From positions 1-22,435 of the IMG/VR virus record IMGVR_UViG_3300025674_000440: a stretch of DNA of 22,435 nt. The stretch is one strand, 5' to 3'. This document shows, one piece after another, positions 887-21,800 of this stretch. Within the stretch, counting starts at the first letter, position 1, and each line of letters opens with the position of its first letter. This DNA is from a virus. The notes beneath the pieces are model-generated. The model was not told the DNA's origin, did not search any database, and saw only the letters and a list, made by a program, of their open reading frames with translations. A program made the position numbers and the translations under genes.

Positions 887-892
887 TATAAT
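887..892 (+). promoter_or_regulatory. Candidate -10 box (TATAAT) before the 917 gene
   Basis: A perfect TATAAT lies in the 32-bp gap between the 103-aa and 256-aa genes, 24 nt before the GTG at 917. No convincing -35 is visible. The spacing is nearly the same as for the TATAAT boxes before the two fibre genes (27 and 25 nt), which supports a shared late-type promoter. In AT-rich DNA a TATAAT can arise by chance. Confidence 0.4.
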
Positions 893-10856: not shown

Positions 10857-10886
10857 TTGAGATAAAGACATCGCTTTCAGTATAAT
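10857..10886 (+). promoter_or_regulatory. Strong sigma70-type promoter
   Basis: TTGAGA (10857-10862) and a perfect TATAAT (10881-10886) are separated by 18 bp, just after the stop of the 99-aa gene. The predicted start of transcription is near 10893, about 15 nt before the 41-aa gene. It is the best-matched host-type promoter I found in the window. It would drive the 41-aa peptide and, by read-through, the endolysin and NblA-like genes. Confidence 0.65.
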
Positions 10887-10907: not shown

Positions 10908-11033
10908 ATGGCAAAGAGTTCTTCACGCACCGTTAAGTTTTCTTCAAAGCCTCCTAAAAAAACAAATCAAGGACAAGGCAAACATTCCCGTCCTAATCAC
11001 GGAAGGAAAAAAACCCGAGGGCAGGGTAAATAG
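10908..11033 (+). CDS. 41-aa highly basic peptide
   Basis: An ATG at 10908 opens a 42-codon frame ending in TAG at 11031-11033. The product begins MAKSSSRTVKFSSKPPKKTN and then has QGQGKHSRPNHGRKKTRGQGK: about one third Lys/Arg, no acidic residues, and a GQGKH...RGQGK pair. I recall peptides with this GQGKHSxPxxGxKKxRGQG pattern in marine cyanophage genomes. The strong promoter directly upstream supports expression. Nucleic-acid binding is likely from charge alone; the function is unknown. Confidence 0.65.
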   Translation: MAKSSSRTVKFSSKPPKKTNQGQGKHSRPNHGRKKTRGQGK

Positions 11034-11043
11034 TAATTAAAAC

Positions 11044-11078
11044 TGTGTAAGATTAACTATATTAGTTAGTCTTACACA
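11044..11078 (+). promoter_or_regulatory. Start-site hairpin of the endolysin gene
   Basis: GTGTAAGATTAACTA (11045-11059) pairs with TAGTTAGTCTTACAC (11063-11077), giving 15 pairs with one G-U and a 3-nt loop. T11044 can also pair with A11078, the first base of the start codon. There is no run of T after the stem, so it is not a standard terminator. A -10-like TATATT (11058-11063) sits at the loop; transcripts starting near 11070 would lack the 5' arm. The structure is seen in the sequence; its effect on translation is inferred. Confidence 0.6.
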
Positions 11079-15565: not shown

Positions 15566-15976
15566 TTATTCCAGCACATCAAAAGCTTTTTTCTGATACA
15601 TTGTGCTCTTATCTTTTCTATAATCTGAAAGCTGAAGAGGTTTGTTTCGCGAAAACGACTGAACGAGGTGGTTCCAAGGAATACGTATTACTGCTTTCCT
15701 GCCTTCGTCTGGACAAACGTTGACATAATGCAAACCTTCTTTCCAACCACGGGTAGGATCTTTTCTGCCAACAGCCATCCAATTTCTAATTGTTTGATCA
15801 GAAACACCTAAACGCCTAGCACATTCTTCAGTAGAAATGTATTCATCAGAAAAAGCCTGGGGGTTTAAGGAAGAATTAACATCTTGTTGACTTTGCCAAA
15901 AAGAAGCCAAAATGTTTTTAATACCTTTAAGCTCCCATGCAATATCTTCTAAACCTTTACGAATTCCGTGACTCAT
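15566..15976 (-). CDS. HTH DNA-binding regulator, first gene of the minus-strand block
   Basis: I chose ATG 15976 rather than the TTG one codon upstream. After a helical N-terminus (GLEDIAWELKGIKNILASF) there is an excisionase/MerR-like helix-turn-helix at residues 46-66 (YISTEECARRLGVSDQTIRN), then a wing (GWKEGLHYVNVCPDEGRKAV), IRIPWNHLVQSF and a basic tail. It heads the minus-strand block and is divergent from the membrane protein gene at 16020. A perfect dyad 6 bp upstream of the start (15983-15993) is a candidate binding site for self-control. The same HTH type as the 75-aa protein at 3989-4216, though clearly a different gene. Confidence 0.75.
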   Translation of the reverse strand: MSHGIRKGLEDIAWELKGIKNILASFWQSQQDVNSSLNPQAFSDEYISTEECARRLGVSDQTIRNWMAVGRKDPTRGWKEGLHYVNVCPDEGRKAVIRIPWNHLVQSFSRNKPLQLSDYRKDKSTMYQKKAFDVLE

Positions 15977-15982
15977 CAAATT

Positions 15983-16451: not shown

Positions 16452-16497
16452 GGCCACCTATAATTCAATATATAGGTATGGGATCTTATAGGTGGCC
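16452..16497 (+). promoter_or_regulatory. Inverted repeat hiding the start codon of the 767-aa fibre gene
   Basis: GGCCACCTATAA (16452-16463) is a perfect inverted match to TTATAGGTGGCC (16486-16497), with a 22-nt loop. The 3' arm contains the GTG start (16492-16494). The 5' arm can instead pair with a nearer TATAGGT (16471-16477) through ACCTATA (16456-16462), which would leave the GTG open. So two exclusive hairpins share one arm. The structures are seen in sequence; the switching is inferred. Confidence 0.6.
16459..16464 (+). promoter_or_regulatory. Candidate -10 box (TATAAT) before the 767-aa fibre gene
   Basis: CCTATAAT (16457-16464) matches CCTATAAT (18797-18804) before the next fibre gene, at nearly the same distance from the start codon. 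Transcription from it would begin near 16471, after the 5' arm of the inverted repeat, giving a messenger with the start codon unpaired. No clear -35 is visible. Confidence 0.45.
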
Positions 16498-18795
16498 AAC
16501 AGAAAAATTACAGATTTACCAGCGTTAGGCCCGGAGCAGATTGCCGATGCCGATCTGTTAACTATCGTTGACGTAGGAGAAGTTGATCCAGGTTTAAAAA
16601 ATAAAAAATTAACAATTAATAGTACTAAGCAGTACTTTAACGGATATTACTATTCTGTAACAGGAGGAACCTTAAGCGGATCTGTCACCATTACAGGTGA
16701 CTTAAGCGTGGAAGGAGATTTCACTCCGACAAATATTACCGCTTCTGGAACAGGTACTTTTGGCACTGTTTTTGTATCTGGAGCAAGCACTTTTAGTGGC
16801 TCTGTCGTATTTGAATCTACCGTTTCAGGCGGTACAATTACGGCAACAAATATTAATGCGTCAAGCGGTAGCTATTCAAACTTAACTGTTACAACTTTAA
16901 GTCAGCTTGATTCGGGCAACATTTTAGACCTTAGTGGTAATACAGCGACAATTGGAACGGGTACTTTTACCAAAGTAATCGGTAATACGGTTACAGGTAC
17001 AACCATTCAAGGAACTACTGTAACTGGAACTACTGCTCAATTCGCAACAGGTGTATTTACATTAGTTAGTGGAGCTACTGTATCAGGTCCAGTAGGAAGT
17101 TTTACAACTGTTACAGGAACGACTGGAAACTTTGCGGCTTTATCGGGCACAACAATTACTGGTGGAGCAATAACGACACCTTTACTTACAGCAGATTCAG
17201 GTGTATTTACTACTAGTCTTTCAGGAGCTGTTGTTACTGGAGATGCTATTAGAGCTACTTCAATTACAGGTGCTTCTGGTGTTTTTACTTCAAATTTATC
17301 TGGAGCTACAGTAACAGGTAACTTTATAAAAGGCACTACATTTAGTGGGGTTTCAGGTGTATTTACTACAGTTTTATCAGGTGCAACTGTAACCGGACAA
17401 AACGGAAATTTTTCAAACGTTAATGTAGGCAGTGGAAACTTTGGAACAGGTACGGCTACATATTTTAGTGGCACTACTCTCGTTGGCGGAGATATCACGG
17501 GTGTTTCTGGTGTTTATACAGCTCAACTGTCTGGGGCTACCATCACAGGCAATGTGGGTAGCTTTACATCAATTACAGCTGAAACAGGCACGTTTACAAA
17601 CACTCTTGCACTTCCTTCTTTTAGCACAACAGGTAACATTGAATCATCGGGCGATTTACTTGTTAGGCAAAACGCAACAATCAATGGGAATTTAACGGTT
17701 CCTAGTGGAGTTGTTTCTGGCATTTCTGGAAACTTTACCAACATAGCTGGAACAGACAGTACTTTTATCGGTACTGTTTCAGGCGCGACAATAACAGGAG
17801 ATATTGTCAATGCAACCAGAGTTAACGCAGTCACTGGTACGTTTGTTTTACTTTCTGGAACAACCGTTACAGGATCAACTGGTGTATTTACTCAAAGTGT
17901 TTCTGGTACAAGGGTATTAGGTACTACTGGAATATTTGCAACCGGCACAATTACTGGTTTAACTGCAACCACTATTACAGGTGTTTCTAATATTTATGCA
18001 ACAGGGGGTACGTTTACTAACCTTACCGGTACAGCAATTAGCGGAACCACAATTACAGGTGCAACAGGTCAGTTTGCCAATTTAAATGGGACTTCAGGGA
18101 CATTTACGACGCTATCTGGCACTACTTTAAATGTTGTAACAGGTAACTTTACAACCGGTACCTTTACAAGTTTAAGTGGGGCTGTAATCACAGGCGGAAC
18201 AGGACAATTTGCTATTGTTGACGCTACTTCAGGAGCATTCGATACATTTACAACAACTACATTTACAGCTGTTACCGGTGCATTCACAACAATTACTGGA
18301 GCTACTGGTTTATTTACAGGACAAAACTCATTAATTTCTGGTCAGAATGTCAGCGGTGAACGCGCTGGTTTTCAATACGTAACTGCAGATACCAAGGTTG
18401 AATCAACTGTAATCGAAGCAACAGGCACAACCGGAACGATTAGTGGTCCAATTCATTTAGGTGCCAGCGGGACATTTACGTCAAGAGTTTCTGGTGCTTT
18501 TATTACAGGAACAACTATTGAATGCGTAACAGTTACTGCTGTTACCGGTAACTTTGACATAGCCAACTTTACCGAAACAACGACAGGTAATGTTGAGGCC
18601 TCTGGATATGTATCTGGCGTGTCAGGTATGTTCACAGAACAAATGGCCGGAGCCGCAATTTTTGAAAATAAATATCAATTATCAGAAAGTTTAACAATTA
18701 AATCAGGTTTTAACGGACTTTCCATGGGGCCAGTAGACATTAACCCTGGGGTTGTAATTACAATTCCAAGTGGTTCTGTGTGGGGAATATTATAG
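16492..18795 (+). CDS. Tail-fibre-like protein, Thr/Gly-rich repeat, 767 aa
   Basis: The start is GTG; MANRKITDLPALGPEQIADA is the fibre-type N-terminus (ITDLPAL...DADLLTIVDVG...KKLT) I associate with cyanophage tail fibres. Residues about 60-720 are a degenerate repeat of short units such as SGVFTTxLSGATVTG and TGNFxxLSGTTITG, nearly free of charge, expected to form a beta-rod or beta-helix trimer. The last 27 residues (NGLSMGPVDI, then GVVITIPSGSVWGIL) match a C-terminal end common to cyanophage structural proteins. Likely role: a long fibre or appendage for host contact. The repeats differ in DNA sequence, unlike those of the next gene. Confidence 0.75.
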   Translation: MANRKITDLPALGPEQIADADLLTIVDVGEVDPGLKNKKLTINSTKQYFNGYYYSVTGGTLSGSVTITGDLSVEGDFTPTNITASGTGTFGTVFVSGASTFSGSVVFESTVSGGTITATNINASSGSYSNLTVTTLSQLDSGNILDLSGNTATIGTGTFTKVIGNTVTGTTIQGTTVTGTTAQFATGVFTLVSGATVSGPVGSFTTVTGTTGNFAALSGTTITGGAITTPLLTADSGVFTTSLSGAVVTGDAIRATSITGASGVFTSNLSGATVTGNFIKGTTFSGVSGVFTTVLSGATVTGQNGNFSNVNVGSGNFGTGTATYFSGTTLVGGDITGVSGVYTAQLSGATITGNVGSFTSITAETGTFTNTLALPSFSTTGNIESSGDLLVRQNATINGNLTVPSGVVSGISGNFTNIAGTDSTFIGTVSGATITGDIVNATRVNAVTGTFVLLSGTTVTGSTGVFTQSVSGTRVLGTTGIFATGTITGLTATTITGVSNIYATGGTFTNLTGTAISGTTITGATGQFANLNGTSGTFTTLSGTTLNVVTGNFTTGTFTSLSGAVITGGTGQFAIVDATSGAFDTFTTTTFTAVTGAFTTITGATGLFTGQNSLISGQNVSGERAGFQYVTADTKVESTVIEATGTTGTISGPIHLGASGTFTSRVSGAFITGTTIECVTVTAVTGNFDIANFTETTTGNVEASGYVSGVSGMFTEQMAGAAIFENKYQLSESLTIKSGFNGLSMGPVDINPGVVITIPSGSVWGIL

Positions 18796-18805
18796 TCCTA
18801 TAATA
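18788..18805. promoter_or_regulatory. Perfect dyad over the -10-like box before the second fibre gene
   Basis: TATTATAGTCCTATAATA is an 8-bp inverted repeat around TC. It contains the TAG stop of the 767-aa gene (18793-18795) and the -10-like TATAAT (18799-18804), 25 nt before the ATG at 18830. The shared CCTATAAT with 16457-16464 supports promoter use. The dyad could form a small hairpin or bind a dimeric factor. There is no T-run after it, so it is not a plain terminator. Confidence 0.45.
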
Positions 18806-18829: not shown

Positions 18830-21800
18830 ATGGCCTACGGTAAGGTAAAAGCCAATCAGATTGTTTATGATACCGGTGCAGGAGATGTAACGGTAGAAAT
18901 CTCGTCTATTCCAGACACTTCTTCTGGCATTGCAACAACTGGAGAAGTATCTGGAGGAAGCTTAAATACTACGGGAAGCATTAGCGGAAATACATTAGCG
19001 ATTACTAGCGGCGCTAGCGCAGCAACCTTTACTGGTACTGCAGGAAATTTTGTTACAGCAACGTGTGACACTGGCGTTTTTACTTATTTATCTGGCACAA
19101 CAACTACCGGAACAACTGTTAATTTTACAAGCGGTACAGTAGGCAGTTTTTACGCATCGACTATTAATAAACCAACAGGAGCAGGAACATCATTATTAAT
19201 TACAGGTGATCGCGTTAACGCTGCAACGGGTATCTTTGGAACAGGTACAGTTACTGGTTTAGCTGCTACGACAATCGCAGCAATTGAAGCAACTGATTTA
19301 ACAATTACTGCAACAACTGGTATCTATACTTTGCTTAGTGGCGCCACCGTTACAGGTGGAGTATTTAATGGAGTATCAGGTAACTTCGGAACCTTAGGTG
19401 TTACTGGAACTGCAAGTTTAACGACAATCAGTGGAAATACTGTTACTGGCAATAACTTACATGTAACTACCACCGCACAATTTGCTAGTGGTGTAAATGT
19501 TGCCGCAACAGGAACCTTAGGAGTTTATGACGGGGCAGGCGGCTACATGCGTTTTAAAACGCCAGTCGCCTTAGGACAAGGAAATAGTCAAGAATTTACT
19601 ACCCCATCTGGTGACGGAACAAGTGGTCAACTACTTGCTACAGATGGCGCAGGTATTCTTTACTGGAAAACAGATAGTGCAGCACCCGGTAGTGGCGAAG
19701 CTTTAACTGGAGTCAACCTACAAAGTTTTAGTTTTGTTTCTGGTATTCATGATACTCAGGGTAATGTTTACTCACATGTTTATGCCACGAGCGGTACTTT
19801 TGTTAGCGGTTTAAGTTCTAACAGCTTTACCGCATCAACAGGAACCATTACAGGGCTAGCTACAAATAATATTAGCGCTACTGAGGGAGGTGCTTTAACT
19901 CTTACTGCAGCAACCGGTACCTTTACTACGGGTACAATTACTGGTTTAACTTCGACCAATGCTGACATCGCTACTGGTACGTTAAGTACGGGTACGATTA
20001 CTGGTTTAGCTGCTACAACTGGTACTATTACATCTTTATTTAGTTCAACCGGAACAATTACTGGTTTAACTTCAACAACAGCAACAGCAACTACATTTAC
20101 GTACACCACCGGAAATGTTGAAGAGGCAGGTGTACAAAATTTCCGTTACCCCGCAAATGAAAACAGCACAGGATTAGTTAGTTTAAGCGCAGGAACAAGT
20201 ACTGGGGGAACAATAGCTCCTTCGGTTACTTATTATTTACCGCGTACAGACGGTACGTCTGGATATGTACTTTCAACTGATGCAGCTGGACAATTAAGTT
20301 GGGTAGACAATGGAACTGTAGCTGCTAACGCAACACTAACTGGTTTAAACGTAGTTACTAATGCAACAGCTAACTCATTAGCTGCAAACACTGGCACCTT
20401 TACATCGTTAACAGGCACTACAACTACAGGTGTTACCGCAACTTTTACTACTGGTGTTTTTACAAACACAGTTAGCGGATCAACTGTAACCGGATTATTT
20501 ATTTATGCATCACAAACCGTTCAGGCTAGCAATGGAAGCACTGGGGCATCGTTGACGACAGCTGGACTTGGCATCAAAAATGGAAAAGATCTTACAATTG
20601 CAGTAGCAAACGTTGGCAATAACTTTACGCTTACACTACCGGGTTCTGCGCCAACATCAGGTTATATTTTAAAAGCTTCTACTGGTGGTGTCCTTGAATG
20701 GGCGGCTGAAAGCTCGATTGGGAACGACGCAACACTAACCGGTTTAAACGTAGTTACTAGTGAAACAGCTAACTCATTAGCCGCAACAACCGGTACGTTT
20801 ACCTCCTTAACAGGTACTACAACTGTCGGCACTACCGCAGCGTTCACTACAGTTAGCGGAGCAACTGTTACTGGTGGCAATATCTATGCAACAGGTACCA
20901 TTAGTGGCGGAACAGTTTATGCAGAAAGTACTATTAGTGGCGGAACAGTTTATGCAACAGGTACTATTAGTGGCAATTCAGTTTCTACAGCTGCTGTCGA
21001 ATTAACTGCAGAACAACTGAGTATTAAACAAAATGCTACACAAGGATTCCAATATCCCGCAGCTGAAAGCAGCACAGGAACAGTTAGTTTAAGCGTCGGA
21101 ACTACTACTGGAGGAACAGTAGCTCCTTCCGTTACTTACTACCTGCCTCGTGCTGATGGCACCTCTGGATATGTACTTTCAACCAACGCAGCCGGACAGT
21201 TAAGTTGGGTAGACAATGGAGCCATAGGTGATAATGCAACGTTAAGTGGTTTAAACGTAGTTACTACTCAAACAGCTAACTCATTAGCTGCTACAACCGG
21301 TACGTTTACTTCCTTAACAGGTACTACAACTGTCGGCACTACCGCAGCGTTCACTACAGTTAGCGGAACAACTGTTACTGGATCATTTGTTTATGCATCA
21401 CAAACCGTTCAGGGCGGATCAGCATCGGCCTTCAGTCAGTTAAGCAGCACTGGAGTTACGATTAAAAACGGCAAAGATTTTACAATTGCAGTAGCAAACG
21501 TTGGCGGTAACTTTACGCTTACGTTCCCAGGTTCTTCACCAACATCAGGTTATATTTTAAAAGCTTCTAGCGGTGGTGCCCTCGAATGGGCAGCTGAGAG
21601 CACACTTGGTGATAATGCAACACTAAGCGGTTTAAACGTAGTTACTACTCAAACAGCTAACTCATTAGCTGCAACAACCGGTACGTTTACTTCCTTAACA
21701 GGTACTACAACCGTCGGCACTACTGCAGCATTCACTACAGTTAGCGGAGCAACTGTTACTGGTGGCAATATCTATGCAACAGGTATCATTAGTGGCGCAA

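Follow-up and report, generated by a model that had tools for sequence, protein, structure and literature searches.

Probable promoter and lineage-specific hairpin at a cyanophage fiber gene start, and conserved start-abutting hairpins on lysis genes of related phages

The region from 16452 to 16497 of the window (by which we mean the whole 22,435-base stretch analyzed here, an IMG/VR virus record) probably combines the promoter of a fiber-like gene with a hairpin specific to one lineage, while the conserved use of this architecture in the phage family lies on its lysis genes. An arrangement resembling the translational lock of phage T4 gene e is, as judged from alignments, conserved with compensatory changes on the lysozyme leader found in the same window. 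If this is correct, the safety lock known from T4 lysozyme also exists outside coliphages, and compensatory changes maintain the lock arrangement on two unrelated endolysins in a cyanophage family that is widespread and for the most part uncultured. It would also yield a testable rule for lysis timing, derived from sequence alone, and a conserved placement of promoters consisting only of a -10 box, about 30 nt before starts, that predicts the 5' ends of RNAs for many genes.

Source phage and comparison sets

Among the named phages of the collection searched, Synechococcus phage S-EIV1 (KJ410740) stands nearest to the window. The two share gene order around the dCTP deaminase, which is 72% identical, and they match at 56% identity in the lysozyme and 44% in the N terminus of the fiber protein; Megablast against phages gave no match. 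Sets of leaders were compared. The fiber set comprised 158 leaders of the same fiber gene in related phages, falling into 41 clusters at 88% identity, and the lysozyme set comprised 81 leaders in 26 clusters of relatives. Whole-genome scans covered six S-EIV1-like genomes (440,849 nt). A helix-turn-helix (HTH) protein of excisionase/MerR-like type, a candidate regulator, is encoded on the minus strand of the window (15566 to 15979), and such a protein is also encoded near the fiber region of relatives. The features discussed below are collected in Table 1.

Table 1. Positions of the features in the window, with the basis for each
Feature	Position	Strand	Basis or remark
TATAAT box	887..892	+	30 nt before GTG of gene at 917
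TATAAT box	10881..10886	+	27 nt before ATG of small gene at 10908
Lysozyme-leader hairpin of 16 bp with 3-nt loop and one G-U pair; its last base is the A of the ATG	11044..11078	+	Fold z -5.31
TAAGAT, -10-like box in 5' arm of lysozyme hairpin	11048..11053	+	30 nt before lysozyme ATG
Lysozyme, Phage_lysozyme PF00959	11078..11740	+	E 6.1e-19; PHROG endolysin 1.4e-26
Membrane-protein gene, 140 aa, one apparent membrane segment	16020..16442	+	ORF; upstream and in the same direction in relatives
5' arm of 12-bp inverted repeat	16452..16463	+	Expected in read-through RNA only
Smaller alternative hairpin, ACCTATA/TATAGGT, around -10 box	16456..16478	+	About -4.5 kcal/mol, 6-7 bp
TATAAT, -10 box of fiber promoter, no recognizable -35	16459..16464	+	Invariant in 41/41 clusters
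Predicted 5' end of fiber RNA	16471	+	Promoter geometry, ~12 nt past first base of TATAAT
3' arm of 12-bp inverted repeat, holding GTG start (16492-16494)	16486..16497	+	
Fiber-like protein, 767 aa, repetitive, GTG start	16492..18795	+	ORF; N terminus conserved in 80 loci
TATAAT box	18799..18804	+	31 nt before ATG of second fiber-like gene at 18830

Hairpins at the fiber start

The initial annotation of this DNA described a perfect 12-bp inverted repeat with the GTG start in its 3' arm, a smaller alternative hairpin, and a TATAAT inside the 5' arm, and all of these are present. The arms of the repeat, GGCCACCTATAA and TTATAGGTGGCC, are separated by a 22-nt spacer. There is no other perfect inverted repeat of at least 12 bp with a loop of 3 to 40 nt in the window, and when the whole window was dinucleotide-shuffled 100 times, 6 of the shuffled versions held such a repeat somewhere. 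When start-abutting stems were scored at 584 gene starts, the one at the window's fiber gene came fourth. The two hairpins had been called exclusive. They do compete for one arm, but hardly as equals, for the 12-bp helix alone is worth -17.3 kcal/mol and is far more stable than the smaller hairpin.

Folding predicts a helix over the fiber start in the read-through RNA of the window lineage only (-22.9 kcal/mol, z -3.15), whereas RNA starting near the predicted 5' end is nearly unstructured, with an open centroid (z +1.36). Part of the match between the arms is forced, as TATA and GGCC are each self-complementary and reasons other than pairing account for the conservation of TATAAT and GTGGC; shuffled upstream sequence hides the window's start equally well in 7% of cases. 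Rfam yielded no match. An intrinsic terminator at this leader was considered and ruled out, as no T-run follows the 3' arm.

The fiber promoter

An internal promoter for the fiber gene, also part of the initial annotation, is strongly supported by the relatives. A perfect TATAAT lies 31 to 38 nt 5' of the start in every fiber cluster (33 nt in S-EIV1), and neither inspection by eye nor a promoter scan revealed a consensus -35 ahead of it. The window has four TATAATs that are intergenic and in the sense direction, and each falls 27 to 33 nt 5' of a gene start. In the six phage genomes this hexamer peaks 26 to 35 nt before ORF starts, with 19 occurrences against 0 to 4 in any other 10-nt bin, and TAAACT, TAAAAT, and TAGAAT are enriched 24 to 40 nt before starts. 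Because the invariant TATAAT follows a promoter placement seen throughout the phage, the internal promoter is well supported, and the comparison argues strongly that the fiber gene carries the ordinary promoter of the group, of a type set about 30 nt before genes throughout these phages. The start codon itself is GTG in all 41 clusters, a universality that is unusual; L147, a locus that belongs to none of these clusters, seems to have ATG.

Conservation of the fiber pairing

Pairing conserved with compensating changes had been expected at the fiber start, and this expectation was not borne out. A search of viral contigs for the exact hairpin pattern gave a single match, in a near-identical contig, which tests nothing because it is identical across the pairing. 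Stems ending at the start exceeded shuffles at p≤0.05 in 4 of the 41 fiber clusters (those of the window, L018, L070, and L031), where about 2 would be expected; leaving aside the window and its near-identical contig, about 3 of 40 clusters have a start-covering stem above chance. The register of the window's pairing is the highest of 25 offsets in the relatives, and its covariation is not significant (0.585 versus 0.574 after the 3' sides were dealt out anew; permutation p 0.07). Since the re-dealt sides give nearly the same value, the excess at this register reflects constrained columns and not compensation. Hiding of the start by the long RNA is not general across the fiber family either (mean z 0.26 with the window left out).

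What the other relatives have instead is a TATAAT box whose 5' flank differs from that of the window. Their 3' arm usually belongs to a smaller dyad that surrounds the box and stops 15 to 16 nt before the GTG, or else no dyad is found. In 33 of 52 distinct relatives a similar second arm stands at a fixed distance around TATAAT, with some covariation, and stops short of the GTG. A separate stem of 9 bp, which ends at the base before the GTG, is found in the L070 lineage (20 loci), and the S-EIV1 fiber start is without the 12-bp pairing. Across the family, then, the pairing is lost while the gene is kept, which tells against a general fiber switch. The T4 gene e logic proposed for this site is thermodynamically possible in the window lineage but is not conserved, the 12-bp pairing being, on the evidence of these alignments, private to that lineage. 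A lock on the fiber gene could still work there and, separately, in the L070 lineage.

The lysozyme leader

A further inverted repeat, also among the longest in the window, lies 5 kb upstream of the fiber gene, at the start of the lysozyme gene. The lysozyme belongs to PF00959, the Pfam family of T4 gene e. No start-abutting stem at the 584 gene starts outscores its hairpin, and one other equals it. Nearly all relatives have a hairpin abutting the lysozyme ATG (81 leaders in 26 clusters; L194 to L273), and the stems exceed shuffles at p≤0.05 in 24 of the 26 clusters. In an alignment of 21 sequences, 97.4% of the pair cells in the helix are standard, a figure that drops to 39 to 65% when the register is slid. 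Twenty-one cells are changed on both sides, compared with 6.0 after shuffling, the counts being of related sequences and not of independent events. RNAalifold recovers the same helix unprompted. A covariance model of the leader, run over the 440,849 nt of the six genomes, returned four strong matches, all of them lysozyme leaders, and scored the window's own leader weakly (E 1.3) because its hairpin has a different shape. The S-EIV1 lysozyme leader also has a hairpin, of a sequence different from the window's.

When several hexamers are allowed, a -10-like box is found at -28 to -30 in all 26 lysozyme clusters. It reads TATGAT in 16 of them and TATATT, TATTAT, TACAAT, or TAAGAT in the rest. 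Because the box adjoins the 5' arm or lies inside it, a transcript begun from it should be missing much or all of that arm. Around the start, bases are unpaired with a mean probability of 0.21 in the long RNA and 0.51 in the short RNA, although in several clusters the long-RNA control with shuffled upstream sequence gives similar values, part of the arm being retained.

Start-abutting stems on other genes

The scan of 584 starts found 15 stems with a score of at least 24, against 0.8 in shuffles and 6.7 in windows shifted into nearby sequence. In addition to lysozyme, the genes with strong stems include a glucosaminidase endolysin and a gene for a helix-hairpin-helix (HHH) protein. The glucosaminidase endolysin (PF01832) has start-abutting stems at p≤0.05 in 29 of 41 clusters. 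In an alignment of 26 of its leaders, chosen for showing a hairpin, the helix is 94.4% paired, and 18 cells are changed on both sides versus 4.8 after shuffling. Of the 15 clusters sampled for the HHH gene, L295 alone shows no hairpin and was probably read from the wrong start; in the leaders of this gene TAAACT stands just 5' of the hairpin.

Two of these leaders deserve description in their own right. In L354 to L433, a compensated GACCTAGAGT/GCTCTAGGTC hairpin sits beside the ATG of the glucosaminidase endolysin. At the HHH gene (L274 to L353; 62875 in S-EIV1), a GACCAG/CTGGTC hairpin abuts the ATG after TAAACT; the very sequence of this stem is conserved, which raises the possibility of protein binding.

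Comparison with phage T4

Long transcripts of T4 gene e fold in such a way that lysozyme synthesis drops 100-fold, and RNAs from two late promoters are without the 5' part of the structure responsible; soc, gene 49, and I-TevI have structures like that of gene e, and some T4-type phages keep e without it (PMC3014915). The lysozyme leader at 11078 resembles that of gene e in having a predicted helix at the start in the long RNA; its candidate promoter, with the -10-like box beside or inside the 5' arm, would give an RNA without the arm, as in T4. It differs in that repression was measured in T4 and is predicted here. On sequence comparison, the lysozyme leader has the features of gene e that can be tested in sequence, the promoter being a candidate, while the fiber leader fails in conservation. 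The T4 soc, gene 49, and I-TevI leaders also offer a parallel to what is proposed for the fiber gene, a hairpin that sequesters the initiation region of a nonlysozyme gene, but they concern other genes and other phages and were shown experimentally in T4. The promoters differ as well. The T4 late promoter is TATAAATA, with gp55, and TATAAT/TATGAT-like boxes stand in its place here; a search for sigma-factor regions in five relatives gave no Sigma70_r2 match, and region-4 matches in two of them that fell below the cutoff. A T4-type sigma was thus not found by these searches, and late timing is conjectural. We did not find such leaders reported in cyanophages, a claim of novelty that rests on limited searches of the literature.

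Proposed mechanism and alternatives

The fiber promoter would consist of the TATAAT some 30 nt 5' of the start with no consensus -35, an arrangement shared with many genes of S-EIV1-like cyanophages. RNA begun at about 16471 would have a leader of some 20 nt without the 5' arm, leaving the GTG accessible. Read-through RNA from the membrane-protein gene would, in the window lineage, fold its 12-bp hairpin over the GTG and probably be translated poorly. Because the coding sequence of the membrane protein runs to 16442, within 9 nt of the 5' arm, ribosomes completing it could disturb the hairpin. For the lysozyme and the glucosaminidase endolysin, a compensated hairpin abutting the ATG, its 5' arm overlapping the -10/discriminator region, would leave only the RNA from the gene's own promoter freely translated, as in T4 gene e. 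Transcription start sites, timing, and translation effects at the fiber and lysozyme leaders are what we infer from these arrangements.

The promoter may be all that matters at the fiber gene, the 12-bp pairing being a neutral coincidence between two motifs under constraint, TATAAT and GTGGCC, that hardly affects translation. The self-complementarity of TATA and GGCC, the lack of conservation among relatives, and an excess at the window's register that comes only from column composition (the permutation test above) would all be expected of a coincidence. A perfect 12-bp repeat is nevertheless rare in shuffled windows, this one is placed exactly on a start, and the L070 lineage has its separate stem ending at the GTG; we regard coincidence as a real possibility, if somewhat doubtful. 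The dyad around the -10 box could also be a DNA element, either an operator for a phage regulator such as the HTH protein at 15566 to 15979 or a symmetric promoter. The fixed distance of the second arm in 33 of the 52 distinct relatives, short of the GTG, fits this idea, as does the nearby HTH gene in the window and relatives. It nonetheless seems unlikely, as the arms vary between clusters yet stay complementary, unlike a fixed operator, and many relatives have the box without a dyad. In certain relatives, such as L003/L019 (GCCTATAA..TTATAGGCTTTTTGG), T-runs come after a stem, as would suit a weak terminator or 3'-end stabilizer of the membrane-protein mRNA with the promoter nested inside it. 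But the window is without the T-run, the stems are weak and AT-rich, and the site is absent from the terminator-like list of the scan, which makes this role for the relatives' small hairpin quite improbable.

We favor the reading of a promoter with a lineage-specific hairpin, in which the window's fiber stem looks, from the comparisons made, like a private addition to a device used mainly on lysis genes. There is perhaps an even chance that a 5' arm in the gene's own -10/discriminator region with a 3' arm abutting the start is a general device of S-EIV1-like cyanophages, by which the translation of read-through RNA from selected genes (the two endolysins, the HHH protein, and sometimes the fiber) is locked.

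Some smaller observations concern the same signals. The -10-only boxes TAAACT, TAAAAT, TATAAT, and TAGAAT in the six S-EIV1-like genomes may represent distinct promoter classes. Before the second fiber-like gene, positions 18788 to 18805 of the window form a perfect dyad, TATTATAG-TC-CTATAATA, each strand of which carries a -10-like box. Finally, a 77-aa gene (MSYVIATWK...) has a hairpin of 15 to 17 bp located 3 to 4 nt before its ATG (G002 74693, G003 50042, G004 53634 [minus strand]).
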